From contig JACPHN010000023.1 of the NCBI GenBank assembly GCA_016188575.1, positions 1-64,000 on the forward strand: 64,000 nt of DNA. Reading direction: 5' to 3'. Both the position numbers and the translations under genes were made by a program. Each line of letters opens with the position of its first letter. Position 1 is the first letter of the stretch. The notes below the pieces were generated by a model. That model did no database searches. It saw only the letters and a list, made by a program, of their open reading frames with translations, and was not told the origin of the DNA. This DNA comes from Candidatus Schekmanbacteria bacterium (GTDB lineage: Bacteria; CSSED10-310; JACPHN01). Positions 3,990 to 51,934 of this stretch are shown one piece after another.

Positions 3990-5990
3990 ATGATTCGCCA
4001 CAAGCTGCTGTTGCTGTTTTTCTTGTTGGCAACAGTGCCGATGGTGGCGATGAGCACACTGGCCTACGTACGTTCGGTCAATGGTGTGGAGCAGATGCTC
4101 ACGGAGCAATCCGTCGTCATTGTCAATGACATGCTCGGCCGAGTGCGGCAGACACTTGCCGAGCCGGTGGCGGCATTGGGCGCCATGGCGCAGATGGAAG
4201 ACCTCGTGAAGCTGGCCGGAGATCCCGGCTGTGCTCGGGCTTCGGCGGCGCCAGGCGATTCAACGCTGGGCAGCTCGGGAACTGAGCTCGCCGGCCCCTG
4301 TCGGCGCGGCCAGGAGATCCTCGGAGACTTTTTTCTCGGTTACCGACACAGCTACTCGCGGATCCTGGTGGTTTCCTTGCTGCCGGCGGCAAGCCCCAGT
4401 GCCGGCGCACCTGTCGCCGACGGACCCGCTGTGGAGCGGTCCGACGAGGTCAGGGCCGTGTTTCGCACCAAGGAGGTGGTCGAGGTCCGCGGCGGCGAGT
4501 GGGCGTACGTCGAGCCGCAACCGCGGGAGCGCATCGTTCGCGCTGAAATCGACCGCTTGCTCGGACGTAGCAGCGACCACGTCAAGGCGTCGGAGCTACG
4601 CATGGACGCGAGTGGTTACGTGCATCGCGTAGCCGTGCCGCTGCGCACGCGGGATGCAGTCGTGGGCGCGATCGTGGGCGACCTGAAGGTCTCCACCTTG
4701 CTTGAGGAGACGGGTCGAGCGCAGAAGCTCGGCCGCTACGGTGAGCCGACGATCCTCACGGCGGACGGCATGGTGCTCTTCCATCCTGATCCAGCGCGTA
4801 TCAACCTATCGGCGGGGCTCGTCATGCCCGAAGTCGCGGCGGCCGCCGCCGCGGTTGGCAAGGGAGCCGCCCAAACGCGCCGCTTTGTGCGCGGCGGGGA
4901 GACGTGGCTATTTTCCGCGGCAGTCGATGACTCCTTCGGCTGGGTTGTGGGGCTCGCGACGCCGCTAGGCATTTTTGTGCGGCTGCCGGCGCGCGCGGCC
5001 AAGATTAACGTAACGATCGCCGTCATCTCGGCGCTGCTCGGTTTCGCGGCGCTGCTGTGGCTGGTCGCCCTGATTTCCCGGCAAGTGCGAACGCTCACGA
5101 CTGGTGCCGACGCCATCGCGTCTGGAAACCTCGCCACGCGCATCGAGGTGCGCTCCCAGGATGAAGTCGGCAAGCTCGCGATCAGTTTCAATGCCATGGC
5201 GGAGCGGCTCGACGAGCTCGTCCGGCAGTTCATCGAGGACGAGCGCATGCGCGAGGAGCTACGCATCGGCAGCTCGATGCAGGCGCGGCTCATCCCCAAG
5301 CAGTTTCCGCGCGTGCGCGGGGCGAGGGTGTACGGCATCATGCGCCCGGCGACGGAAATCGGCGGCGACTACTTCGACGTTATCGGTGACGGCACGGGCG
5401 GCGTCATCATTGCGATCGGCGACGTTTCGGGTAAGGGGCTGCCGGCCGGGCTGCTGATGGTGCAGGCCAATGCCATCGTCCGCAGCTATGCGGCGATGGG
5501 CTTTGGACCGCGGGACATCCTCCTCGGGCTGAACCGATTCCTCTCCGAGCGCATGTCGGCGAATCTCTTCATGAGTCTGCTTGTCCTCAGCTATGATGCC
5601 ACGCACCGCACGATTCACGTTTCGGGCGCCGGCCACGAGCACATCCTCGTGCTCAGCCGCGCTACGGGTACCGTGGAGGCGCGGCGGTGCGGCGGCACCG
5701 CGATCGGCATTCTCGACAGCGAACACGGACGATTCAGCGAGGTCGAGTTGGCACTGCAGGCGGGAGACCGCGTACTGCTCTACACGGATGGGGTTACCGA
5801 AGCCCGCGACGCGCAGGGCGCCTTTTTTGGCCTGGACCACCTGAGCGAGCTCTTCGTGGCAACAGCCGGCCTCGCCGTTCAGGAGTCGGTGCACGCGATG
5901 CTCGAACGCATCACCTTGTTCTATCATGAGACCGAGCAGTACGATGATATGACGATGGTCTTGTTCGAGATTGGGGAGGATGCGCTGTGA
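3990..5990 (+). CDS. Membrane-bound PP2C-type serine phosphatase (RsbU/SpoIIE-like) with HAMP domain
   Basis: This is a 666-residue sensor phosphatase. Helix 1 (about 7-27) and helix 2 (about 338-362) flank a large extracytoplasmic region, probably a Cache-type sensor. A HAMP domain follows (about 362-415, with VRSQDEVGKLAISFNAMAER) and then a SpoIIE/PP2C domain (about 428-660). Metal-binding motifs are present: EIGGDYFD, GDVSGKGLPAGLLM, YTDGVTEARDAQG and QYDDMTMV. Proteins of this kind dephosphorylate a STAS anti-sigma antagonist. A substrate candidate is encoded two genes downstream (7705). The ATG at 3990 starts directly at helix 1; a GTG at 3966 is an alternative. The stop overlaps the GTG of the next gene (GTGA), so this is the first gene of a five-gene coupled operon. 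Confidence 0.9.
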   Translation: MIRHKLLLLFFLLATVPMVAMSTLAYVRSVNGVEQMLTEQSVVIVNDMLGRVRQTLAEPVAALGAMAQMEDLVKLAGDPGCARASAAPGDSTLGSSGTELAGPCRRGQEILGDFFLGYRHSYSRILVVSLLPAASPSAGAPVADGPAVERSDEVRAVFRTKEVVEVRGGEWAYVEPQPRERIVRAEIDRLLGRSSDHVKASELRMDASGYVHRVAVPLRTRDAVVGAIVGDLKVSTLLEETGRAQKLGRYGEPTILTADGMVLFHPDPARINLSAGLVMPEVAAAAAAVGKGAAQTRRFVRGGETWLFSAAVDDSFGWVVGLATPLGIFVRLPARAAKINVTIAVISALLGFAALLWLVALISRQVRTLTTGADAIASGNLATRIEVRSQDEVGKLAISFNAMAERLDELVRQFIEDERMREELRIGSSMQARLIPKQFPRVRGARVYGIMRPATEIGGDYFDVIGDGTGGVIIAIGDVSGKGLPAGLLMVQANAIVRSYAAMGFGPRDILLGLNRFLSERMSANLFMSLLVLSYDATHRTIHVSGAGHEHILVLSRATGTVEARRCGGTAIGILDSEHGRFSEVELALQAGDRVLLYTDGVTEARDAQGAFFGLDHLSELFVATAGLAVQESVHAMLERITLFYHETEQYDDMTMVLFEIGEDAL

Positions 5991-7708
5991 GGAACAGGGG
6001 CCGCGGCCGAGCAATGAGGCTGGGGGCGAATGCCGGGCTGCTCTTGGCGCTCTTGGCGGCCTGCACCGGGGGCCCGGAAAAAGCGGGGCCGGCAGCTCGC
6101 GCCGGGCAGTATCACGGAGCGCTCGCGGCGTCGTTGCGGCATCTCGACCCCGCGCTCATGGAGGATCACACCTCCAGCATTGTCGGCACCCAGCTCTTTG
6201 ACGGGTTGGTTCAGTACCGCCGCGGTACCTTCGACGTTGAACCGGCACTCGCCGAGCGCTGGGAAGTCACCGCCGACCAGAAAGTGTGGCGCTTCTTTCT
6301 GCGCAAGGGCGTGCGCTTTCACGACGATCCTTGCTTTCCCGGTGGCCGCGGACGCGAGGTAACCGCCGCCGACGTCGTCTACTCGTTCCATCGACTCGGC
6401 GATGCCGCCGTGGGTTCCCTGGGGGGCTGGATCTTTGCCGACAAGGTCGCGGGGTTTCGCGAGCTCGCGGCGGGTACAGCCAAGTCGGTATCCGGCTTTC
6501 GTGTTCTTGACGACCATTCCCTGGAAGTCGAGCTGGTAGATGTCTTCGCGCCTTTTCTGCACTTGCTCACGACTCCCTACGCGTACGTCGTCCCGCGGGA
6601 GGCTGTCGAGTACTACGGCGAGCTGTTCGACCGCCATCCGGTGGGTACCGGCCCATTCCGCCTCGTGCGCTGGGACGCGGCGTCGGAGATCTTGCTCGTC
6701 CGCCATGATGGATACTGGGAGAAGGCACCGGACGGCCCGGAGCAGTTGCCGCTGTTCTCTCAAGTGTCGTTCCGGTTTCTGGTCCGCCCCATCGAGATGC
6801 TTGGGGAATTCGAGGCGCGGCGACTGGACAACATGGAGATTGTCGCGGAGGTGGAAGGTGGGGTGTATGCGCCGATCGATGGCGGCGTGCCGGGAACCGA
6901 CCGAGTACTGCTCCCGAAGTGGCAGGAGCGACAGGTCGTGCTGGTCTCGCCGCGCGTCATCGGTGGCCTTTACTTCATGGCGCCGGCGCAGTCAGCCGCC
7001 GGCTCGTTGATCGAGGGGAATCGCGACGTCCGCCTGGCGCTCAACTGGGCCATTGACCGGGAGCGGCTGATTCGCGAGATCCTGGGTCCGACAGCCAGCC
7101 CCGCGGGCCGCGTTATTCCTCCGGGTATGGACCCGCTACCTCCACCTCAGCCAGCGTTCGGCTATGATCTTCCACGCGCCCGACAACTGCTGGCCAGCGC
7201 GGGCTACCCCGGCGGCAAGGGCTTTCCGCCATTGCGCTTGCTCACCAGCTCCGGCATCACCTCGGCAATCGCAGACTTCGTCTCATCGACGTGGGCGGAG
7301 CTAGGCATCACCTCGACGGTGCAGGTCGTGCCCTGGTCCGAGCAGGACGCGGCGCAAGACAGCGGCCGTTATGACATGTACTCGATGGGGTGGAGCGCCG
7401 ACTACCCCGACGCGGAAAACTTCCTACGAATTTTCTATACTCCCAGCGTCGTCGGCATTCGCTACGCGGAACCCGACTTCCGCGCGCTCTTCGAAAAGGC
7501 GCTGGGTGTGCTCGACACGCAGGAACGTTATGGCCTGTATCGAAAGGCCGAGGCATTGATTCTCCGAGACGCTCCCGTGGCGTTTCTGTACCACACGCGG
7601 AATCGCGATTATCTTCAGCAGCCGTGGCTCAAAGGCGTACCTATCTCGAATACGGGTCTCTACTTCTTGAAGTACGGTTGGATTGAAGCGGAAGGAATGA
7701 CTCCATGA
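5987..7708 (+). CDS. Solute-binding lipoprotein, family 5 (OppA/DppA-like)
   Basis: This 573-residue extracytoplasmic solute-binding protein belongs to the peptide/nickel family (SBP_bac_5). It starts with GTG overlapping the previous stop. The signal peptide ends in LLAAC (cysteine near residue 26), so the mature protein is lipid-anchored. Family landmarks are LAERWEVTADQKVWRFFLRK with GVRFHDD, VTAADVVYSFHRL, HPVGTGPFRLVRW, VRLALNWAIDRERLI and the C-terminal FLYHTRNRDY region. In transport operons this protein feeds a permease and ATPases, but none is present. The neighbours are instead an RsbU-type phosphatase (4-nt overlap) and a STAS protein (ATGA overlap). I infer a sensory role: it may present a ligand to the phosphatase sensor domain. 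Transport with a distant permease remains possible. Confidence 0.88.
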   Translation: MRNRGRGRAMRLGANAGLLLALLAACTGGPEKAGPAARAGQYHGALAASLRHLDPALMEDHTSSIVGTQLFDGLVQYRRGTFDVEPALAERWEVTADQKVWRFFLRKGVRFHDDPCFPGGRGREVTAADVVYSFHRLGDAAVGSLGGWIFADKVAGFRELAAGTAKSVSGFRVLDDHSLEVELVDVFAPFLHLLTTPYAYVVPREAVEYYGELFDRHPVGTGPFRLVRWDAASEILLVRHDGYWEKAPDGPEQLPLFSQVSFRFLVRPIEMLGEFEARRLDNMEIVAEVEGGVYAPIDGGVPGTDRVLLPKWQERQVVLVSPRVIGGLYFMAPAQSAAGSLIEGNRDVRLALNWAIDRERLIREILGPTASPAGRVIPPGMDPLPPPQPAFGYDLPRARQLLASAGYPGGKGFPPLRLLTSSGITSAIADFVSSTWAELGITSTVQVVPWSEQDAAQDSGRYDMYSMGWSADYPDAENFLRIFYTPSVVGIRYAEPDFRALFEKALGVLDTQERYGLYRKAEALILRDAPVAFLYHTRNRDYLQQPWLKGVPISNTGLYFLKYGWIEAEGMTP

Positions 7709-8106
7709 GCCTGAAAATCGACATCGAACCGCTGAGCGACGCCGCCGGGAGCGCGCTTCTGGTACGCGTGAGCGGCGAGTTGGACGCCACCACGGCGCCG
7801 CAGCTCACCAGCGAGATCAACAAGAGCTTCGACGCGACGCGCAAGTCCCTCGTTATCGATTGCGCTGGCATCGGCTTCATGAATAGTACGGCGCTGGGCC
7901 ATCTGATCGCGTATCGCAAGCTGGCGTTGAGCCGCGGCGGCTGCGTCGCGCTGGTCGCCCTGCAGGCGCGCACCCGCGAAGTTCTCGACCTGCTCGGCGC
8001 GCTCGACCTGTTCGTCGCGGTGGACACTCTGCAGGGGGCGCTGAGCGCCATCGGGCACCGCGGGGCGACTGGTGAGCCCCTGAGCGGAACGGCGGGGCGA
8101 CCGTGA
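7705..8106 (+). CDS. STAS-domain anti-sigma factor antagonist
   Basis: This single-domain STAS protein has 133 residues. The fold signature is visible: VRVSGELDATTAPQL, then SLVIDCAGIGFMNSTALGHL. Ser61, in the loop before the second helix, is the position phosphorylated by anti-sigma kinases in SpoIIAA/RsbV proteins. The last 25 residues (GATGEPLSGTAGRP and preceding) are a flexible tail. The gene overlaps the solute-binding gene upstream by ATGA and the STAS-kinase fusion downstream by GTGA. It is the likely shared substrate of the kinase (8103) and the phosphatase (3990) of the same operon. Confidence 0.88.
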   Translation: MSLKIDIEPLSDAAGSALLVRVSGELDATTAPQLTSEINKSFDATRKSLVIDCAGIGFMNSTALGHLIAYRKLALSRGGCVALVALQARTREVLDLLGALDLFVAVDTLQGALSAIGHRGATGEPLSGTAGRP

Positions 8107-8927
8107 CGCCGAAATCGTACAGACCACCCCGCCTGCGCCTGCAACCACCGCTACCGACCTTTCCCGTCGTCCATGTCCGGCTCGCCGGTGACATCGCGCG
8201 CGCGGGGGCCGACCGGCTCGGACACGATCTCGCCGAGCTTCTGGACGACAGCGCGCTTTCGGTAGCCGACTGGATCATTGACTTGGGGGACCTGGACTAC
8301 CTGAGTAGCCGCTGCCTTGGCGCGCTGGTCGCCCACCAGCGACGCCTCGCGGAAGCCGGTCTACGCCTGGCGCTGGTCGTGCCGAGCTCGTGGATCCGCC
8401 AAAAGATCGAGCTTCTCGGGCTCCACGAGCGGCTCCTCATCGCGCGGACCAAGCGAGAGGCCCTGGCGTTGCTGCTCGGACGCGCCGAACCGGGCGAACG
8501 CCGCCTGCAAATCCGCTTTCCTGCCGATCTTCAGGCATGCGTTTCGGTCCGGCGCCTCGCTGCCGATATCGCCATCCAGAGCGGTCTGAGCGAGATGGAC
8601 GCGATGCGCCTGGAGCTCATTACCGACGAGCTCTGCAACAACGCCGTCGAGCACGGAGCAGTCGGCTCCACGGAACCGATCGAGCTCGTGCTCACCGTGC
8701 GCGCCGATAGTGTCGTCATCGAGGTTGTGGACCCGGGCGGGAAGTTCTTCGCCCTGCCCAATGCGGCCGCGTTGTCGACCCAGGTGAATGACCCAACAGG
8801 CGATATTCCACTCCGGCGGCGCGGGCTGATTCTCGTTCAGAAAATGGCGCGGGATCTCGAAGTTGAGGTCGTCGAGGGAGCCACACACGTGCGCGCGGTG
8901 CTCGCCCGGGAAGGTGGCGCGGCGTGA
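8103..8927 (+). CDS. Fused STAS antagonist and RsbW-like anti-sigma kinase
   Basis: One 274-residue chain carries two halves of a partner switch. Residues about 20-120 form a STAS domain with LGDLDYLSSRCLGALVAHQ at the phospho-loop (Ser68/Ser69). Residues about 135-270 form a GHKL ATPase of the RsbW type. Its N box is ELITDELCNNAVEHG (Glu176, Asn180), its G1 box is VVDPGG, and RRRGLILVQKMA follows. Start is GTG, overlapping the previous stop, and the stop again overlaps the next start. In Bacillus these two functions sit on separate proteins. The covalent link may hold the kinase in an intramolecular complex that the free STAS protein (7705) competes with. That model is inference. Confidence 0.87.
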   Translation: MTPKSYRPPRLRLQPPLPTFPVVHVRLAGDIARAGADRLGHDLAELLDDSALSVADWIIDLGDLDYLSSRCLGALVAHQRRLAEAGLRLALVVPSSWIRQKIELLGLHERLLIARTKREALALLLGRAEPGERRLQIRFPADLQACVSVRRLAADIAIQSGLSEMDAMRLELITDELCNNAVEHGAVGSTEPIELVLTVRADSVVIEVVDPGGKFFALPNAAALSTQVNDPTGDIPLRRRGLILVQKMARDLEVEVVEGATHVRAVLAREGGAA

Positions 8928-10354
8928 CGGTCGCGGCACCGGGTCTCGGCGCGCCACCCGATCTCGCCACCGCCATCGCCGAGCGAGACGAGGCGTTGCT
9001 GCGACTGGAACAAATGGGCAAACGGCTGTCGCGCCTGATGCTCGACGTTCGCACCTTGTTCGACCTGCCGCGCCAGCTCCAAACCATGGGCGGACCTGAG
9101 GACATCCTCCGCTTGCTCGTGTACACGATCAGCGGGCAGTTTCTCGTGGAGGACGTCGCCGCCTACTGGCGTAGCGGGCACGAGAAACAGTTTTCGCTGC
9201 TGGCCCGGGTCGCGCTGGTGGAGCCGGCTCCTCCCGACAACATCGTCGTCGACGAGCTGTGGGCGGCGCACGCCGGGGTGAAACCGCAAGCCCTTCGTGA
9301 CATCCCGGCCGGAACCTTTTCCGCGGTGCCCAGCGCCACGACCTACGTAGTGCCCCTGTGGCAGGACGGCAGTCTTTCGGGGTTGCTCTTCCTGGCAGAC
9401 CAGCTCACGTCTGGCGCCCTGTCGGCCCAGGATCTCTCCCTGTTACAGGCGTTGGCCGAACAATCCGTGCTTGCCATGGACAACGTGCGCCTGCTCCAGG
9501 AGACGCAGCGTCAGCAGCGCGAGCTGGCCGTGCGAAACGAAGCGCTCGCACTGGCATATTCGCGCTTGCAACAGCTCGACGAGCTCAAGGGAGAAATCAT
9601 CGGCCGCACTCTACATGAGTTCAACACGCCGCTGACCACCATTCTCGGCTACGTCCAGTTGGTGCGCGGACGCGAGCAGGACGTGCTCTCGGATCGTATG
9701 AGCCGCATTCTTGGCATCATCGAAGAGAACGCGGGCCGCATCGCCGAGAGTGTCCGCGCCATTGCCGACGCCGCCTACCTCGAGGAGGGCATGGCCGACA
9801 GGGGCCCGGCGCGTACCCCCGTAGTGGTGGCGGACCTCGTCGCGGAAGTCGTCAACCGCTTCCAGATGATCGCCAGCTCTCGGCACCTCACGCTTGACCT
9901 GGTGCAGCAGCCGCCCTTCGGCGTCCTCGCGGTGGATGTGCGACAGATCGAGCAAATCGTCGGCGAGCTCCTGCAGAACGCGATTCGCTTCACGGAAGAC
10001 GGCGGAGCGATTCGGGTGTCGACGAGCCCGTGGCGACCTGGGCAAACAGACTGGACACTGGCAGTCGCCGACACCGGAGTCGGGATCGCCGCGGCGCATC
10101 ATCAGCGGATTTTCGAACGCTTCGAGAGCGCCCGCGACGTACGCCTGCACAGCTCAGGAAAATACGAATTCGCATCTGGCGGTCTGGGGCTCGGCCTGTG
10201 GGTCGTGCGCAAGATCGTCGAGAACCATGGTGGGACCGTCGGCGTTACGAGTGCCCCCGGACGCGGCTCCACCTTTACCGTCACGATCCCGGGGTTGCAG
10301 CCGCCTCCCGGGTTCACGCCGCCTGCCGGTCTCGAAATCGGCCCCGGCGAATAG
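8924..10354 (+). CDS. GAF-domain sensor histidine kinase
   Basis: This cytoplasmic histidine kinase has 476 residues and no membrane helix. A short coiled coil (about 15-45) leads to a GAF domain (about 50-195), a second coiled coil (190-225), a HisKA domain and a HATPase domain (about 340-460). The H box reads LHEFNTPL (His231) rather than the common HELRTPL. The ATPase has the N box GELLQNAIRF, the G1 motif VADTGVGIA and GGLGLGLWVVRKIVE. It begins with GTG overlapping the previous gene and is the last gene of the coupled operon. No response regulator follows, so its phosphoacceptor lies elsewhere, or the kinase acts within the partner-switch complex. Confidence 0.87.
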   Translation: MTVAAPGLGAPPDLATAIAERDEALLRLEQMGKRLSRLMLDVRTLFDLPRQLQTMGGPEDILRLLVYTISGQFLVEDVAAYWRSGHEKQFSLLARVALVEPAPPDNIVVDELWAAHAGVKPQALRDIPAGTFSAVPSATTYVVPLWQDGSLSGLLFLADQLTSGALSAQDLSLLQALAEQSVLAMDNVRLLQETQRQQRELAVRNEALALAYSRLQQLDELKGEIIGRTLHEFNTPLTTILGYVQLVRGREQDVLSDRMSRILGIIEENAGRIAESVRAIADAAYLEEGMADRGPARTPVVVADLVAEVVNRFQMIASSRHLTLDLVQQPPFGVLAVDVRQIEQIVGELLQNAIRFTEDGGAIRVSTSPWRPGQTDWTLAVADTGVGIAAAHHQRIFERFESARDVRLHSSGKYEFASGGLGLGLWVVRKIVENHGGTVGVTSAPGRGSTFTVTIPGLQPPPGFTPPAGLEIGPGE

Positions 10355-10395: not shown

Positions 10396-11211
10396 ATGAA
10401 CTCGTCCACCTCGTCCCCATCGGCCCCTCGAATCCTTCTCGCCCTCGCCATCGCCGCCGCTGCTGTCTTTCTCTCCGTGTCAACGCCGGCAGCCGCCGGC
10501 GAAAACATCCTCGGCGTTCGCGTCACCCGCACGGACGGCTCGGTGATCAAGGGCGATTTTCTCGGCATGACCACGCACGAGCTGACGATCCGGGCCAACG
10601 GCCGCGAGACGCCGTTGTCGTTCGACAATGTACAGATCGTTGACTTCGGCGGCGAAGCGAGCGGGCTCGACATGGAAGCTGCCTCCGCCCAGGCCTCCCC
10701 ACATCTGGTCATCAAGCGCACCGGGACCGTTATCGCGGGCATTGTCAAGATGGCGGACCTGCGCATCGTGCGCGTGCGCACTGCAGAGGGCGGATCCAAG
10801 GACGTCGAGCTTGATCAGATCGCGCGCATTTACCTGCAGGCAGGCGCTGCCCCGGAGCCGGCGGCTCCGGTTGGTCCCAGCCCGCACCAGCTCGCCGCTT
10901 TGCAGGATGCGGCCCGCAACTTCGCCGACGCCATGGAGCAAGCCGGAGGCGGCGCGGCGCTGCCGAAGTGGGACGCAATCAAGCGGGAGGCGCGGGCATT
11001 CGCCAGACTGACGGCCGACTACGCGCACAAGATTCGCGGTAACGCCAGTATCGACGACCTGCGCTTCGACTTCGTCCCGGTGCGGCGGTCGTTCGACAAG
11101 CTGTCTGAGCTTTACAACAGCGCCCCGGCGCTCGACCACATGGAGGCGGTGGCGCCATTCTGGAAGGCGCTCGGAGCGACTTACGAAGAGGTGCGTGCCG
11201 CGCTGGAGTAG
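10396..11211 (+). CDS. Exported protein of unknown function
   Basis: This 271-residue protein has a signal peptide (core LLALAIAAAAVFL, cleavage likely after PAAAG). I chose the ATG at 10396 because AGAGGAG lies just upstream; the open frame to its left overlaps the kinase gene. The first half contains two similar beta-rich segments: RVTRTDGSVIKGDFLGM with LTIRANG, and LVIKRTGTVIAGIVKMADLRIV. These look like small barrel or SH3/Sm-like folds. The second half is helical, from QLAALQDAARNFADAM onward. I do not recognise the family. It starts 41 bp after the partner-switch operon and could share its transcript. Confidence 0.65.
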   Translation: MNSSTSSPSAPRILLALAIAAAAVFLSVSTPAAAGENILGVRVTRTDGSVIKGDFLGMTTHELTIRANGRETPLSFDNVQIVDFGGEASGLDMEAASAQASPHLVIKRTGTVIAGIVKMADLRIVRVRTAEGGSKDVELDQIARIYLQAGAAPEPAAPVGPSPHQLAALQDAARNFADAMEQAGGGAALPKWDAIKREARAFARLTADYAHKIRGNASIDDLRFDFVPVRRSFDKLSELYNSAPALDHMEAVAPFWKALGATYEEVRAALE

Positions 11212-15470: not shown

Positions 15471-18400
15471 ATGCCCGCATCCGATCCCCTGTGCGCGGTG
15501 ATTGCCGAACGCTACGAGCTGATTCGCGAGCTCGGCCGCGGCGGCATGTCGACCGTCTACCTGGCGGAAGACCGCCAGCTAGGGCAAAAATGCGCGCTGA
15601 AAGTCTTGCATCACGGTGCCGGGGCGAATCGGGAGCTGCTGCGCGCCGAGTTCGCGGCGATGCTGCGAATGCGGCATCCCGCGATCGTAGAGGTGTTCGA
15701 TTTCGGCGTCTCCGGCGATGGCAGTGCGTACTTCACGATGGAGGCCGTGCAGGGAACGGATTTCGGCGTGTTTGCGGCCGCCGCAATGTCCGAAATCGGG
15801 GTGGCCAGCCGTTTCTGTGAGGGTCCTCTCGGGTCAATCATGGCCGACCTCTTGGGCGCGCTGGAGTGCATTCATCGGCAGGGATTCCTGCACGCGGATT
15901 TGAAGCCGTCGAATGTCTTGGTGACAACCTCAGGAAACGGGATCACCACACGGCCTCGCGCCAAGCTCGTCGACTTCGGGCTCCTGACCTCGCCACGGCG
16001 CTTTCCTCCGGGCGAGGCTCGCGGCACGCTGCGATACATGGCCCCGGAAATGCTCGCATCCGAATTCGTCGATCAGCGAGCCGATCTGTTTTCGCTCGGA
16101 GTCATTCTCTTCGAGGCGCTTTCCGGCAGGCACCCATTTCGCGGAGAAGATCTCGCCGAGATGAGCGCCACGGGCGCGGAGCGGCCCGCCGCACCAAAAG
16201 AACTTCCGGAAACCGTTCCCGCGGCGCTGGGAGCGATCGTAAGGCGGCTCTTGGAGCCGGTCGTGGCGTTGCGGTATCTGTCGGCAGCCGAAGCCCTGGA
16301 AGACCTGGTCGCCTGCGGCGCCGGCGTGTCACCAGAGACAGCCAACGAGGTTTACCAAGACAGCGATGCAAGCTGGCCGCTGCGCGCCACCCGCTTTTGC
16401 GGCCGAGAATGGGAGCTCGGCCAGATCCAGCACGCCATTGGCAAGGCCACCGCCCGCGCCGGCGCCGTCATCGTCGTCCACGGGCAGAGCGGCGCGGGAA
16501 AGAGCCGGCTGATCGCCGAGCTGAAACACCGCCTGGAGCTGACCGAGGCAGAAGTCGTGGAGCTCCCCCGCCACCTATCCCGAAGCATCGGCACCCAAGG
16601 CGACGCGGCAAACCTGCGCTCCGCGGAACCCGGAGCCGAGCCTTTAGAGGCGACCGGAAGCAGCGATCTGCTGGAGGCCGAGGCCGCCGCCATGGCGCCG
16701 GCTGCTCCTGCCGGACCGAGCAACGCCAACGCAGCCAGCATAACGATCGCACGACACCGAGCTCAGGCCGTGCTCGCGGCCGCTATCCTGCCCAAGCGAG
16801 CTGCGGTGACCCTGTTGCTTGATGATGTCGACCTCCTTACCGCTGACGACCTCGAAACGCTCCGCTATCTCACCTCGCTGGCCGTTTGCGAAGGCCACTC
16901 CCTGGTCCTCGCATCGCGAGTCATGCCGCAAGGCGCGGTGGAATCGGCCGAAGAAACGGTGCCCGCGGGCGTTTCTTCATTTCTGGAGTATGCGCTCAGT
17001 CTCGATACGGCTCTGGCGCTGCCGCTTGAGGGGCTGACCCCCGCCGAAGTGGACAGATATCTCGCCGTGACGCTCGGGCATGTCAATGCACCGGAGCAAC
17101 TGGCGCACCTGGTGCATGGGAGGACACAAGGGATCCCCGCCCTGATCGAGGAGCTGCTGGACTCCGCTCGTCGCCTCGGCGCGGTTCGCCGCCGGGGCGG
17201 CCGGTGGGAGTGGGACCCTGACCGGCCCGCGCTGGCGGAGCTCGTCCTCCCGGAGACGGCGTTGGACATGCTGCGACTGCGCCTGCGGCGGTTGCCACCC
17301 GGCGAGCTGCAGATTCTGGGCCGGATCACCGTGCTGGGGACCGACTTTGACCGCGGAGCGGCGCACGCGCTCTCCGGTGTTGAGCCAGCGACGACCGAAG
17401 AGGCGATTCGGCGCGCCGCAGCGTTTGGACTCGTGCTGCCGGCGGATGAGAAGGCGGAGGCAGGAGGCGAAATGCGCTTCGCCTCTCCTGAGGTAGCAAG
17501 CCTCCTCGGCGAATCGCTGCTCCCCGCCGAGCGCTCGCTCGCGCACCAGCGGGCGCTGGAGTGGATCGCCTCGCAGCCCCAGCTTCAAGACAGCCAGTGG
17601 CGATGTGCCCGCCACCTCTACGAGCTCGGTCGGGTGGTCGAAGCGGTGAGCGCTGGCCTGGCGGCGGCGGCCTACAGCGAGGCGAGCGGTGCTCCGCGGG
17701 AAGCCGTGAAACGCTATCAATGGGCCGAAGAAGCGGCACGCGAGGGCGGCTTGGAGCTCGGCGACGGGCCACGGAACATCAGGGAGCGCCTGGCGCGTGT
17801 TGCCATGGCGTGTGGTGACTTCGAGACGGCGGAGCGAGCCGGCCGCGAGGCGCTCGCCGCGCTTCCACGGGCTGATGTCGACCGGCGCGAGGAGATGCAC
17901 GGGCTCCTGGCGCAGGCTCTACAATGTCAGGGGAGGGCACGGGACGCGCTCGCAGAAGTCGAGCAGGGCCTTGCCATCGCGGGCGCGGAAACCCGAGGCC
18001 GACTTGAGTTGCTGATCCGCTCCGGCAGGTTGGCTTGGTCGATGGGAAACACCGACGACGCCGTAGTGACGTTGCGGGCGGCGCTGGCCATGGCGGAACG
18101 GCGCCATAGCGCCCGGCATCAGGCGCTTGCGAGAATCAGCATGGGGGACGCGCTGGCCCAGGCCGGACGGAGCGGAGAGGCTCGCGACTGCTTCGCAGCA
18201 GCGCTTGGCGTCGCTGAGCTAGTACGCGCTCCCGATCTGCGCGCCGCCGCCGAGCTCGGCCTCGGAAACTGCGCGATCGACACCGGATGTCCGGCGGACG
18301 CCCGCCATCACTACACGGCGGCACTGGAAGCCGCAGGGTTGTCCGGAGACGACGCCCTCATCGCGCGCTGTCGCAACAGCCTCGGTCGGACGCTGGCCGT

Positions 18401-20402
18401 GTTCGGAGATTGGCCCGGAGCCCGCGAGCAGTGGCTTGAGGTAGGCCGACTGACAACGCTTCTTGGGAACGACCAGCAGTCGGTATACGTGCTCCACAAT
18501 CTCGCCAGTCTCGACAAGCTTTCGGGAGCTTTCGATACGGCGCGCCGCCAGTGCCGGCGGGCGCTCGAAATTGCCAGACGCGCCGGGCTTGAGGTCCTGC
18601 TGCCTCATCTCGAGGAAAATCTCGCCGACATCGAGCTCGCAGCGGGGGACGCCGCGCGTGGCGTCCCCTTGATGCAGGCATGCCTGACCCGGGCAGTCGC
18701 CGCCTGCGAGTGGGACCGCGCGATGGCAGCGCTGCGCGCCCTGATCGATTGCGGCGTACGCGTGGGCAGTCGTGCGGAGCTGGCGGAGCTGCACAATCGC
18801 GCCGAGAGCATCATCGCCAAGCACTCTGGCGCTGACTTCAGCGAGCTTCCCGAGCTCCTCCGGGCGCTGTCCGAGGCGGACGCCATACTCGGAGCTCCCG
18901 AATCCGCTCTCGCCCGGATCGAGCAACTGCGGAGCCCGCAGCCGTCTGGCGTGGCAGACCCTCTCGTGCTCGCGCGCCTCGATGCCGCCGAGGCGCGGGC
19001 CAGAGCCGGCCTCGGGCAATTCGAGGCCGCTCTGGAACGAATACAGGCGGCGGTTAGCTCCTTCGCCAGCCTCGGCGCCCGTCCCGACCTCGCTAGAGCC
19101 CAGAAGCTCCTTGCGGAGCTCGACGCGGCCCGCGATTCCCGCCGCCAGCGCGGTCGCCACCTCGATATCCTGCTCAGCGTCGCTCAGGACGTCGGCGCCC
19201 TCCAAGATCTCGATACGTTGCTCGATCGCATCATGGACAAGGTCTTCGCAGTTACCGGGGCGCAACGCGGATTCCTGCTTCTCTTTCGAGAGGATGGCTC
19301 GCTCGAGTGCCGCGTCGGCAGAAATCTCGAGGAGCGACTGCCCAATCTCAACGAGATCCGCTTCAGCCGCAGTCTGGTGACCGAGGTAGCATCCTCGATG
19401 CGCCCCGTGAGCTACACGAACATCCTCGAGCACGAAGCCTTTGCCACCCAGGAGTCCGTCATCGCTCTCGGCCTACGATCGGCGATGTGCGTGCCGATGA
19501 CCACCAAGGGAAAGAAGATCGGCGTGATCTATGTTGACAGCCAACGCGTTGCCAACCGCTTCTCCAAGGAAGACCTCGAGCTCCTCGCGGCGCTGGGGCT
19601 GCAAGCCGCGATCGCCATCGAAAACGCCCGACTCTACGCCGACCAGGAACGCAAGACGGAGCTGCTGGGCTACCTGGCACACGAGCTGCGCACGCCCATG
19701 AGCTCGATTCTCCTGTATGCTCACCTCGTGCGGCGAGAAGCAGGGGATAACACCATCGTGGACGGCTACCTGAACAAGATCGACGAGCAGGTCAACCGCA
19801 GCGATGGTCTGATCAGGCACATACTCGACCTGGCGCGCGCCGAAGCCGGCAAGCTCCCGCTGGTCATGGGCAAGGTCGACATCGCGGTGGTGATCGACGC
19901 CGTCATGGACTCGGTCCGCGGTCTCGCCGAGGCCAAGGACATTGCTGTCGCCGTCGATATCCCGCGGGAGGTGCCCGCGCTGCGCGGCGACGCCGACCGG
20001 CTCGTTCAGGTGCTGACCAACCTCATGGTCAACGCCATCAAGTTCGCGCCCCGCGGCAGCGAGGTAGCGATCATGGCGCGCAGCGAGCATCGCCACGCGG
20101 GCTCCGCGGGCCGCGAGCGGTCCATTGCGGACTTGCTGATGGAGGGCGTCGCCGCTCAGCCACAGCACTTCGTGCGCGTGTCCGTGTCGGACAGCGGACC
20201 GGGGATCCCGGTTGAGCAACAAGAGCTGATCTTTCGGAAATTTGAAAAAGGCCGTCAGTCCAAGGAGCTGGCGCGAGAGGGCGCAGGCTTGGGGCTGTCG
20301 ATCGCCAAGGAGATCGTGCGCCTTCACAGCGGGCGCATCGGAGTCACAAGCGCGCCGGGCGCCGGCACGACGTTCTTTTTCACCGTGCCGGCTAGCGAGT
20401 AG
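15471..20402 (+). CDS. Hybrid Ser/Thr protein kinase - ATPase - TPR - GAF - histidine kinase
   Basis: One 1643-residue signalling protein. Residues about 14-280 are a Hanks-type kinase with glycine loop LGRGGMSTVY, Lys44, HADLKPSNVLV (catalytic Asp143) and DFG near 169; the usual HRD arginine is replaced by alanine. An AAA/STAND-type ATPase follows, with P-loop HGQSGAGKSRL near 336-346 and LLLDDVDLL near 450. A helical TPR array runs to about 1180. A GAF domain (about 1240-1385) precedes HisKA with YLAHELRTPM (His1404) and a HATPase domain with NLMVNAIKFAP near 1517. This layout is known from cyanobacterial and myxobacterial hybrid kinases. It has no receiver domain and no membrane helix. The convergent subtilase gene ends 39 bp downstream. 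Confidence 0.92.
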   Translation: MPASDPLCAVIAERYELIRELGRGGMSTVYLAEDRQLGQKCALKVLHHGAGANRELLRAEFAAMLRMRHPAIVEVFDFGVSGDGSAYFTMEAVQGTDFGVFAAAAMSEIGVASRFCEGPLGSIMADLLGALECIHRQGFLHADLKPSNVLVTTSGNGITTRPRAKLVDFGLLTSPRRFPPGEARGTLRYMAPEMLASEFVDQRADLFSLGVILFEALSGRHPFRGEDLAEMSATGAERPAAPKELPETVPAALGAIVRRLLEPVVALRYLSAAEALEDLVACGAGVSPETANEVYQDSDASWPLRATRFCGREWELGQIQHAIGKATARAGAVIVVHGQSGAGKSRLIAELKHRLELTEAEVVELPRHLSRSIGTQGDAANLRSAEPGAEPLEATGSSDLLEAEAAAMAPAAPAGPSNANAASITIARHRAQAVLAAAILPKRAAVTLLLDDVDLLTADDLETLRYLTSLAVCEGHSLVLASRVMPQGAVESAEETVPAGVSSFLEYALSLDTALALPLEGLTPAEVDRYLAVTLGHVNAPEQLAHLVHGRTQGIPALIEELLDSARRLGAVRRRGGRWEWDPDRPALAELVLPETALDMLRLRLRRLPPGELQILGRITVLGTDFDRGAAHALSGVEPATTEEAIRRAAAFGLVLPADEKAEAGGEMRFASPEVASLLGESLLPAERSLAHQRALEWIASQPQLQDSQWRCARHLYELGRVVEAVSAGLAAAAYSEASGAPREAVKRYQWAEEAAREGGLELGDGPRNIRERLARVAMACGDFETAERAGREALAALPRADVDRREEMHGLLAQALQCQGRARDALAEVEQGLAIAGAETRGRLELLIRSGRLAWSMGNTDDAVVTLRAALAMAERRHSARHQALARISMGDALAQAGRSGEARDCFAAALGVAELVRAPDLRAAAELGLGNCAIDTGCPADARHHYTAALEAAGLSGDDALIARCRNSLGRTLAVFGDWPGAREQWLEVGRLTTLLGNDQQSVYVLHNLASLDKLSGAFDTARRQCRRALEIARRAGLEVLLPHLEENLADIELAAGDAARGVPLMQACLTRAVAACEWDRAMAALRALIDCGVRVGSRAELAELHNRAESIIAKHSGADFSELPELLRALSEADAILGAPESALARIEQLRSPQPSGVADPLVLARLDAAEARARAGLGQFEAALERIQAAVSSFASLGARPDLARAQKLLAELDAARDSRRQRGRHLDILLSVAQDVGALQDLDTLLDRIMDKVFAVTGAQRGFLLLFREDGSLECRVGRNLEERLPNLNEIRFSRSLVTEVASSMRPVSYTNILEHEAFATQESVIALGLRSAMCVPMTTKGKKIGVIYVDSQRVANRFSKEDLELLAALGLQAAIAIENARLYADQERKTELLGYLAHELRTPMSSILLYAHLVRREAGDNTIVDGYLNKIDEQVNRSDGLIRHILDLARAEAGKLPLVMGKVDIAVVIDAVMDSVRGLAEAKDIAVAVDIPREVPALRGDADRLVQVLTNLMVNAIKFAPRGSEVAIMARSEHRHAGSAGRERSIADLLMEGVAAQPQHFVRVSVSDSGPGIPVEQQELIFRKFEKGRQSKELAREGAGLGLSIAKEIVRLHSGRIGVTSAPGAGTTFFFTVPASE

Positions 20403-43219: not shown

Positions 43220-44252
43220 CGACGATCCTTACCAGCTCGAGGATGAGCAGGACGAATCAGAGGATACTGACACCTACGACGACGGCCTGTCCGAGGAGCT
43301 ACCGGACGGTGGCGATGGGGCCGAACCAGAGGAGGAGGAAGCGGAGAATGGCGATCTTCGGCAAGCGCTGGACACGTTGACGATGCCGGTGTCGGGTCTT
43401 ATTCTGTATGATCCGTACCAGCATTACCTCGCCAAGATCCGCCGACACCCTTTCTTGACTCGCAAGGAAGAGGAGGAGCTGTTCAGAAATTTCCATGAGC
43501 AGGGCGATCGATTAGCAGCTCTCAAACTGGTGCTTTCGCATCTCGGGCTTGTCGTAAAGATCGCCAATAAATATCGTTGGACTGGGTTGTCCATTATGGA
43601 TCTCATCCAGGAGGGCAATATCGGACTTATGCATGCCGTTACAAAGTTCGACACGGAGAAAGGTGCTCGCCTGGCCACATATGCGGGCTACTGGATTAGA
43701 GCCATGTTGATCAAATATGTTGTTGATAACTGGCACCTCGTCAAGACCGTCACTACGCAGACTCACCGGCGATTGCTCCCGAAGTTGCTGCGCGCCCGCC
43801 AAAAGCTCCAATTGCTCGGCGAATCCGCGACCACGGCTCTGCTTGCAGATCACCTGAACGAAAAGGAGGAGGATGTTATCGAGGCCCAGTACATCCTGAG
43901 TCTTCGCGAGGTATCTCTGGACGCGCCGATATCGGCGGACTCGGATCAATCGATCGGCGACCAGCTATCGTCGGACAATGACGATTTCGAGGAAGACGTC
44001 ATCGACGATGACTTTCGGATCAAATTTCGCTACGTACTGGATGGGTTCAAGAAAGCTCTCGATCCGCGGGATATCCGCATCCTCGACGCGCGGCTCCTCG
44101 GCGATCCTCCCGCGACACTTCAGGCGCTCGGCAGCGAGCTGCACCTGACGCGGGAAGCTGTTCGGCTGCGCGAGAAGTCCATCCAGAAAAAACTAAAGAA
44201 ATACGTCCAGCAGAACTTTCCGGAGGCGGAGCTGCAAATTCGCGACATGTAG
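43206..44252 (+). CDS. RNA polymerase sigma factor, RpoH-like group
   Basis: This sigma-70-family factor has 348 residues. An acidic N-terminal tail (about 1-55, rich in D and E) is followed by region 1.2/2.1 (YLAKIRRHPFLTRKEEEELF), region 2 (LVLSHLGLVVKIANKYRW, MDLIQEGNIGLMHAVTKFD, ATYAGYWIRAMLIKYVVDNW), region 3 and region 4 with the helix-turn-helix LQALGSELHLTREAVRLREK. WIRAMLIKYVVDNW and the following RRLLPKLLRARQKL correspond to the RpoH signature, so a heat-shock or related alternative role is likely. The acidic extension is unusual. It starts with GTG inside the upstream receiver gene. dnaK and grpE lie 13 kb away, with a promoter that looks sigma-70-like instead. Confidence 0.87.
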   Translation: MTMHDDDPYQLEDEQDESEDTDTYDDGLSEELPDGGDGAEPEEEEAENGDLRQALDTLTMPVSGLILYDPYQHYLAKIRRHPFLTRKEEEELFRNFHEQGDRLAALKLVLSHLGLVVKIANKYRWTGLSIMDLIQEGNIGLMHAVTKFDTEKGARLATYAGYWIRAMLIKYVVDNWHLVKTVTTQTHRRLLPKLLRARQKLQLLGESATTALLADHLNEKEEDVIEAQYILSLREVSLDAPISADSDQSIGDQLSSDNDDFEEDVIDDDFRIKFRYVLDGFKKALDPRDIRILDARLLGDPPATLQALGSELHLTREAVRLREKSIQKKLKKYVQQNFPEAELQIRDM

Positions 44253-50188: not shown

Positions 50189-51934
50189 TCACTCGTAAAA
50201 CGGCTTCAGGATGCCGCTTCGAGTAGGATGCCGCAGCTTTTTCAGGGCACGCGCTTCGATCTGCCGGATCCGCTCTCGGCTCACGTTGAGCTCGCGACCG
50301 ATCTCTTCGAGCGTGTGCTCCTTGCCACGCTCCATCCCGAAGCGCATGCGTATGACCTTCTTCTCGCGGTCGCTCAAGGTCTGCAAAACGCCATCGGTGG
50401 CATCGACCAGGGCGCTGCCGCTGGCTTCCTCCAACGGGCTTTCCGCGTCCTCGTTCTCGATGAAATCGGCCAAGAAGCTGTCCTCTTCTTCGCCGACGGG
50501 TAGCTCCAGCGATACTGGATCCTTCGCCGCCATCATCAGGTGCCGAACTTTCTCCTCTGGAATCCCCATCTCCTCGGCGACGTCCTTGATCGTCGGCCTT
50601 CGGTCTTCGCCCTGCGCAATGGTGGCGTAGACGCGCTTGATTTTCTTCAGTATTTCCTGGGTCTGGACGGGGATACGAATCGTCTTCGCTTGATCCGCGA
50701 TCGCTCTGGCGATGGATTGGCGAATCCACCAAGTTGCATACGTGCTGAACTTGCACCCTTTTCGGTAGTCGAATTTCTCGACGGCGCGGATCAGGCCAAG
50801 GCAGCCTTCCTGAATGAGATCCGGAAAGGACAGGCCCTGGTTCGCGAATTTTCGCGCGATATGTGGGACCAGCTTGATGTTGGATTCAACAAAGAGGTTT
50901 CGCGCGCGCTTTTCGCGCTCCCTCACAACTTCGATCACCTGCATGACCCGCCGAAATTGCTCAATGGGACAAGCGTAGCGATCTTCGACTCGCTGGATGC
51001 TGGCGTGGGAATCTTTCAGCACGGGGAGGATAGCCGCCAGTTGCTGACGTGTAAACCTGCTGATGCCGACTTGCTCGGGGGTCATCGATTCGTCTGCGAG
51101 GAGTGCGGGCAGGACCTTGAGCAGCTCTGTGTGGGATAGCCCCAGCTCGTTTTCAACGGCCTTGAGCCGGGCCATGGAGCGTTCTACGTCGTCGAGATAC
51201 CGCGTCAGTTTGCGATAGATCTTCTTGATTCCGTCAAAGTTGAGAAGGAGCGACTTGAGTCGGGCGGAGATCCGCTCGACTGTTTTCTCGTGCTCTTCCT
51301 GCAGCGCGATCTCCTCGGGGTGCGGCAGGGTCGAGCCGAGGAGTTTCTTGACGGCATCGCGGCGGAGTGCGTCGAGATCCTGAATCTCCTTCATGCTCCA
51401 GTCGAGGTACGAGCGGATCGCTCGCTTATCCATCCCGTAGGAGACCTTGAACATGGTAACGGAGAAGAATTCGTCCAGGCGAATGCGGCGCAGTCGAAGC
51501 CGCTTTCCGAGCTCGACGACCTCGATCGGCGCCATCGGTGAGCGAAAGAGCAGCTCGGCAATCTCGGCTTGCGCCGACTCCATTTCCTTGGCGAGTTGCA
51601 CCTCCTCATCGCGCGTGAGTAGCTGTGGTCCACTCACTTGCTCAAAGAAGTGCTCGGTCTCGTTGTGGTCCTCTTCCGCCTCACGGATGACGTCCTCGAG
51701 CGAGGTGTGCGACTGGCTACTGAACTGCTGCATGTAGCCCACGTCTCCGCTGATATCGTCCTTAATGACGGGAATCCCTTCGTTGAGCAGCTCGATCAGC
51801 ATTTCGTCGAACTCGCCGTCGCGATCGATCTCGTCGGGGAGCGCGTCTTCGATGTCGTCGTGCGTCAGATAGCCTTTTGACTGCCCGATGGCTTCTAACT
51901 TCTCGAGATATCTCTTTTTGGATTCTTCGTTCAT
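50189..51934 (-). CDS. rpoD: Primary RNA polymerase sigma factor RpoD
   Basis: The 581-residue housekeeping sigma factor has region 1.1 ([20 protein letters not shown]), a non-conserved insert after region 1.2 and region 2 ([57 protein letters not shown]). Region 3 and region 4 ([20 protein letters not shown]) follow. The ATG at 51934 has a poor ribosome site. The frame stays open upstream, and a TTG at 52102 has AGGAGG ten bases before it, so a 56-residue N-terminal extension is possible. The promoter at 52237-52265 would give a leader of about 130-300 nt. ftsK follows immediately and is probably co-transcribed. Confidence 0.95.

Follow-up and report, generated by a model that had tools for sequence, protein, structure and literature searches.

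Partner switches of the Rsb/Spo type (RsbU-RsbV-RsbW and SpoIIE-SpoIIAA-SpoIIAB of B. subtilis) are built from a PP2C phosphatase, a STAS antagonist that carries a phosphoserine and a HATPase_c_2 kinase, and the locus described here has all of these parts. Activation of RsbU runs through coiled-coil linkers, which bring its phosphatase domains together as dimers; the same linker activation has been proposed for HAMP-linked phosphatases, and would let histidine kinases and diguanylate cyclases exchange sensors with phosphatases (PMC12143880). The closest known switch is SiaABCD of Pseudomonas aeruginosa, which shares with our locus a two-TM HAMP-PP2C phosphatase, a kinase and a STAS-type substrate; it responds to carbon availability, its substrate is phosphorylated on threonine, and its output is a diguanylate cyclase, not a sigma factor (PMC7647112, PMC8457831). 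Other bacterial receptors take as their stimulus a ligand-loaded solute-binding protein (SBP); those surveyed are chemoreceptors, sensor kinases, c-di-GMP enzymes and Ser/Thr kinases, with no PP2C phosphatase or partner switch among them (PMC9602780). Here we describe an operon from a Candidatus Schekmanbacteria bacterium that, judging from sequence comparisons, we are inclined to read as a partner switch gated by an extracellular ligand, in which a family-5 SBP (SBP5) would act via the extracytoplasmic domain of the phosphatase.

Results

Five open reading frames occupy positions 3990-10354 of the window (the whole stretch of 64,000 nucleotides that was analysed) on the + strand: a dCache-like/HAMP/SpoIIE phosphatase (3990-5990), an SBP5 lipoprotein (5987-7708), a STAS protein (7705-8106), a STAS-RsbW fusion (8103-8927) and a soluble GAF histidine kinase (8924-10354). 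Successive genes overlap by 4 nt on that strand, with GTGA at 5987-5990, ATGA at 7705-7708, and GTGA again at 8103-8106 and 8924-8927. ORF coordinates, Pfam profiles and motifs bear out the first-pass annotation, which had named five genes of these types joined by 4-nt overlaps and had seen no permease or ATPase gene in the operon; permease and ATPase profiles have no match in the window, and BPD_transp_1 has none on its 144-kb contig. The fixed stoichiometry that had been read from the overlaps is unsupported, as they indicate translational coupling instead. The five genes form a genuine, intact feature that very probably works as a unit. Transcription may extend beyond them, since a same-strand frame (10396-11211; a putative secreted protein of 271 aa without a Pfam family) starts 41 bp after the kinase. 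The source genome, about 94% complete, comprises 9.2 Mb in 275 contigs and belongs to a sparsely sampled phylum. Elsewhere in the window, positions 15471-20402 encode a protein of 1643 aa that, judged from its translation, is an apparent fusion of Ser/Thr kinase, ATPase, GAF and histidine kinase.

The first gene encodes an RsbU-type phosphatase for which Pfam, motifs and a TM scan give the order TM - extracytoplasmic region - TM - HAMP - SpoIIE/PP2C (SpoIIE 1.6e-43, HAMP 2.2e-15). Its two TM segments, at about residues 6-24 and 343-362, enclose an extracytoplasmic stretch of roughly 318 residues, and the PP2C metal-binding motifs GGD, GDVSG, LYTDG and DDMT are intact, as is required for assignment to the RsbU type. 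The C-terminal half of the extracytoplasmic region (residues 210-321) gives a weak, sub-threshold match to dCache_1 (5.5e-7). Across 386 genomes, the phosphatase matched only itself at E<=1e-70 and the extracytoplasmic sensor region had no relative at E<=1e-6. This absence of relatives counts against the sensory reading of the window pair, for which SBP-sensor co-conservation is out of reach, and it precluded a deep alignment; the single-sequence AlphaFold model of this phosphatase was unusable (pLDDT 37).

The SBP gene adjoins, through its 4-nt overlap, this two-TM receptor with an extracytoplasmic domain, and thus stands as the genes of SBP-activated receptors do. Its product has a family-5 domain (SBP_bac_5, 5.9e-70; 236.7 bits against a cut-off of 32.4) and a lipobox at Cys26, and a strong Shine-Dalgarno sequence precedes the GTG start. 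In both a PDB alignment and an alignment of 57 SBP5 sequences, Asp472 aligns with Asp408 of DppA, a residue that touches the amino end of the bound peptide. Because of this alignment, and because the nearest family-5 proteins in the PDB by sequence are peptide-, dipeptide- and heme-binding, a peptide-like ligand is plausible. An initial search with the SBP through 84,980 species genomes returned no relatives; neither of its nearest relatives (L026 and L027) adjoins a phosphatase, the L026 contig being only 4 kb long.

Downstream, the STAS antagonist (Pfam STAS 5.9e-18) carries a predicted phospho-acceptor, Ser61, in the motif FMNS61TALG, which we take to be the position of SpoIIAA Ser58; a partner-switch antagonist is thereby recognizable from profile and motif. 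The fusion protein (STAS 1.4e-8, HATPase_c_2 1.2e-17; alignment and motif agree) has an intact RsbW N-box, ELCNNAVEH, at residue 176, and hence a HATPase_c_2 kinase of the expected kind. Its STAS part has Ser69 (window 8307-8309) at the acceptor position, which is occupied by Gly and Tyr in the fusions of L049 and L050. The last gene product is a GAF-HisKA-HATPase histidine kinase (HisKA 1.7e-7, HATPase_c 2.2e-27, GAF sub-threshold) with an intact H-box, HEFNTPL, and no TM segment in the TM scan; the operon encodes no response regulator. In the genome as a whole, there are 16 SpoIIE proteins and five strong HATPase_c_2 proteins.

As the first-pass annotation had stated for the output sigma factor, the operon encodes none of the SigB/F/G type, and none in the genome (about 94% complete) exceeds the TIGR02980 cut-off (best 152 versus 234 bits). 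A SigB-type output was rejected on this ground, and classical SigB is unlikely to be the output because no SigBFG-type sigma factor passes the curated cut-off. Our guess is that the operon's soluble histidine kinase is the target or a second input. Sigma-70-type matches occur in the window at 43518-44204 and 50228-50911, the second within a frame of 825 aa that is probably the primary sigma factor.

For the STAS-RsbW fusion, a search of 290 genomes gave only distant matches. When 84,980 species genomes were scanned with the fusion as a pattern, 37 loci came up, none of which has the same five genes, and the full arrangement is known only from this genome, which weakens the sensory reading. Fibrobacterota and Chitinivibrionales loci (L051-L066, L069, L070 and L072, except L055) have two RsbW-type ATPases in succession, one free-standing and one fused to STAS, followed by a STAS protein, and no phosphatase or SBP was found near them. 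An order unique to the window genome, where only one of the 16 SpoIIE genes neighbours an SBP5, would speak for the chance insertion of a transport gene into a partner-switch operon of one lineage, without a functional link. We consider such an insertion highly improbable, given the overlaps at all four junctions, the intact motifs, and the presence of SBP5-phosphatase and SBP1-STAS-RsbW clusters in other phyla.

The SBP5-phosphatase pair itself recurs in Patescibacteria. One of the 37 loci, L077 (Gracilibacteria), has RsbW - STAS - SBP_bac_5 - HAMP-SpoIIE on one strand, with a YMNS motif in its STAS protein and no importer genes beside the cluster. Relatives of the L077 SBP were present in 22 of 287 Patescibacteria genomes, L077 included; the search was seeded with a paired SBP, so these loci share a common ancestry and do not count as separate events. 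SBP5 lies directly upstream of a HAMP-SpoIIE phosphatase at 12 loci (L077 and L122-L132), with an ATGA overlap of 4 nt in 4 of the 11 loci L122-L132, spacings of 2 to 55 bp in the rest, and 76 bp in L077. At L133, L135, L136 and L138 it is instead followed by a membrane TM/HAMP histidine kinase, and at L134 by a HAMP protein; the remaining relatives stand in other contexts or at a contig end. The two genes remain linked even where identity to the L077 query is 29-37%. The PP2C catalytic residues are invariant in all 12 phosphatases, and a model of a Patescibacteria phosphatase (pLDDT 85) matches the structures of the RsbU, SpoIIE and SiaA phosphatases, mostly in the PP2C part.

The extracytoplasmic region of these SBP5-paired phosphatases is shorter than and different from that of the window phosphatase, with no Pfam sensor match, yet the pairing persists, and the SBP is the shared part. 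This argues against a phosphatase that senses its own ligand via the dCache-like region, with the SBP only buffering or delivering that ligand locally and no signalling from protein to protein. Direct binding of small molecules is common among dCache domains, and the weak dCache_1 match in the window phosphatase speaks for such self-sensing, which we regard as quite unlikely; the sensory role of the SBP is nonetheless weakened because this region could bind the ligand directly.

In a tree of the 57 SBP5 sequences, the SBPs of the 12 Patescibacteria phosphatase pairs group in a single clade (SH-aLRT 99) adjacent to those paired with kinases, and the window SBP falls among transporter SBPs, with L026, L029 and L032 close by. 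A single origin, with the window SBP and these 12 in one clade, was rejected (AU p 0.00015); joining the window SBP to the full Patescibacteria signalling clade of 19 rows, which takes in the kinase-paired SBPs, was not (AU p 0.078). Separate recruitment of the window SBP5 and the Patescibacteria SBP5s is therefore favoured by the branching of the former among transporter SBPs, although not proven.

No BPD_transp_1 permease was found in any of the 17 tested Patescibacteria genomes with a signalling-type SBP5 (12 in which it is paired with a phosphatase, 5 with a kinase or HAMP protein), whereas all 14 control genomes, like the genome of the window, are positive. The 17 genomes are assemblies of unstated completeness, but gaps would hardly account for a count of zero in 17, and the SBP5 proteins they encode thus cannot feed a standard ABC importer. 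Within Patescibacteria, a second SBP5 group forms its own clade (L139-L142, L150 and L151), and at several of its loci the gene comes after one for a SecG-like membrane protein of ~85-90 aa; for this group, the permease search covered two of the source genomes (G290 and G488).

This absence is the strongest evidence of a sensory role, but it bears on the relatives and not directly on the window genome, which is rich in permeases. There, BPD_transp_1 has 32 matches and SBP5 genes stand with permease genes in several sets, and these permeases could serve the SBP in trans, so that the case for sensing is weaker for the window itself. The SBP might then be an ordinary peptide-uptake protein whose permease is encoded elsewhere, the operon merely co-expressing it with a stress or nutrient switch; its place among transporter SBPs and its retention of the DppA Asp408 equivalent would fit. 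However, the 4-nt overlaps put the SBP between phosphatase and STAS, and the SBP5-phosphatase pairing recurs in genomes devoid of BPD_transp_1 permeases. Ordinary uptake is accordingly an unlikely explanation.

SBPs also occur with other signalling partners. In two genomes assigned to one other phylum, Gemmatimonadetes J002 and Cloacimonetes 4572_55, the order is SBP_bac_1 - HAMP-DUF4388 - STAS-RsbW - STAS, and in one of the two SpoIIE phosphatases follow the cluster. SBP_bac_1 proteins of partner-switch clusters (L049:11481-13259 and L050:5551-7032) have extra domains, AhpC/TSA in one and LysM in the other. SBP5 partners in two further genomes are a HAMP-PAS-GGDEF-EAL protein (L034) and a Cache-HAMP-PAS histidine kinase (L035). 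Such exchange of SBP5 partners among phosphatase, kinase and GGDEF-EAL proteins fits the proposal that sensors are swapped between enzyme classes (PMC12143880).

Discussion

Of the readings considered, a sensory role has the best support from the comparative evidence. In the mechanism that we propose, the SBP5 lipoprotein, probably a binder of a peptide-like ligand, would close on this ligand outside the cytoplasm and touch the membrane phosphatase on its extracytoplasmic side. From there the signal would run by way of the HAMP domain and linker helices, and the PP2C domain would change its activity on phosphorylated Ser61 of the STAS protein. Dephosphorylated STAS would bind the RsbW domain of the fusion and displace whatever RsbW holds, and the RsbW domain would put the phosphate back on STAS; the switch may act on a regulator of another kind, the soluble kinase of the operon being one candidate. 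Of this scheme, we infer the contact between SBP and phosphatase, the class of ligand, the sign of regulation and the target.

The idea that ligand binding outside the cell regulates the phosphatase had been put forward in the first-pass annotation, together with conservation of gene order as a check. It gains from the recurrence of the SBP5-phosphatase core pairing in permease-less Patescibacteria and loses from the exact five-gene order, which fails that check because it was seen in one genome only; the core pairing does not fail it. A sensory role is further weakened because adjacent genes for an SBP and a sensor kinase can be functionally unlinked: in one study, sensor kinases showed no binding to the SBPs of neighbouring genes (PMC11113362). 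The novelty then claimed for the combination stands, in that the survey of SBP-activated receptors lists no phosphatases (PMC9602780) and the open-access literature, to which our search was confined (subscription papers being outside its scope), held no relevant report of partner switching, RsbU or SpoIIE combined with SBPs.

The wider proposal is that SBP-gated phosphatases are an unrecognised receptor class, assembled at least twice, and that the family-5 SBPs of permease-less Patescibacteria are dedicated extracellular sensors for partner switches and histidine kinases; we hold the chances of its being right or wrong to be about even. If true, Ser/Thr phosphatases would join the receptor types driven by SBPs, partner switches would gain a defined outside signal, such as is known for few of them, and the keeping of peptide-binding proteins by small Patescibacteria that have no ABC-importer permeases would be explained. 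The system offers an input (ligand), a relay (SBP) and a readout (STAS phosphorylation) that are testable with purified parts.

Compared with Rsb/Spo switching, the phosphatase of the window is a two-TM HAMP receptor, the kinase has an additional STAS domain joined to it, an SBP and a histidine kinase are added, and there is no sigma factor in the operon nor one above the SigBFG cut-off in the genome. SiaABCD, as described, differs in having no SBP (PMC7647112, PMC8457831). With the DppA and OppA proteins, the window SBP has in common a full SBP_bac_5 domain, the equivalent of DppA Asp408 and a lipoprotein signal; unlike in these importers, no permease or ATPase is encoded in its operon, and its gene lies between those of the phosphatase and the STAS substrate. 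What the operon shares with SBP-activated receptors is an SBP gene beside that of a membrane receptor with an extracytoplasmic domain (PMC9602780).
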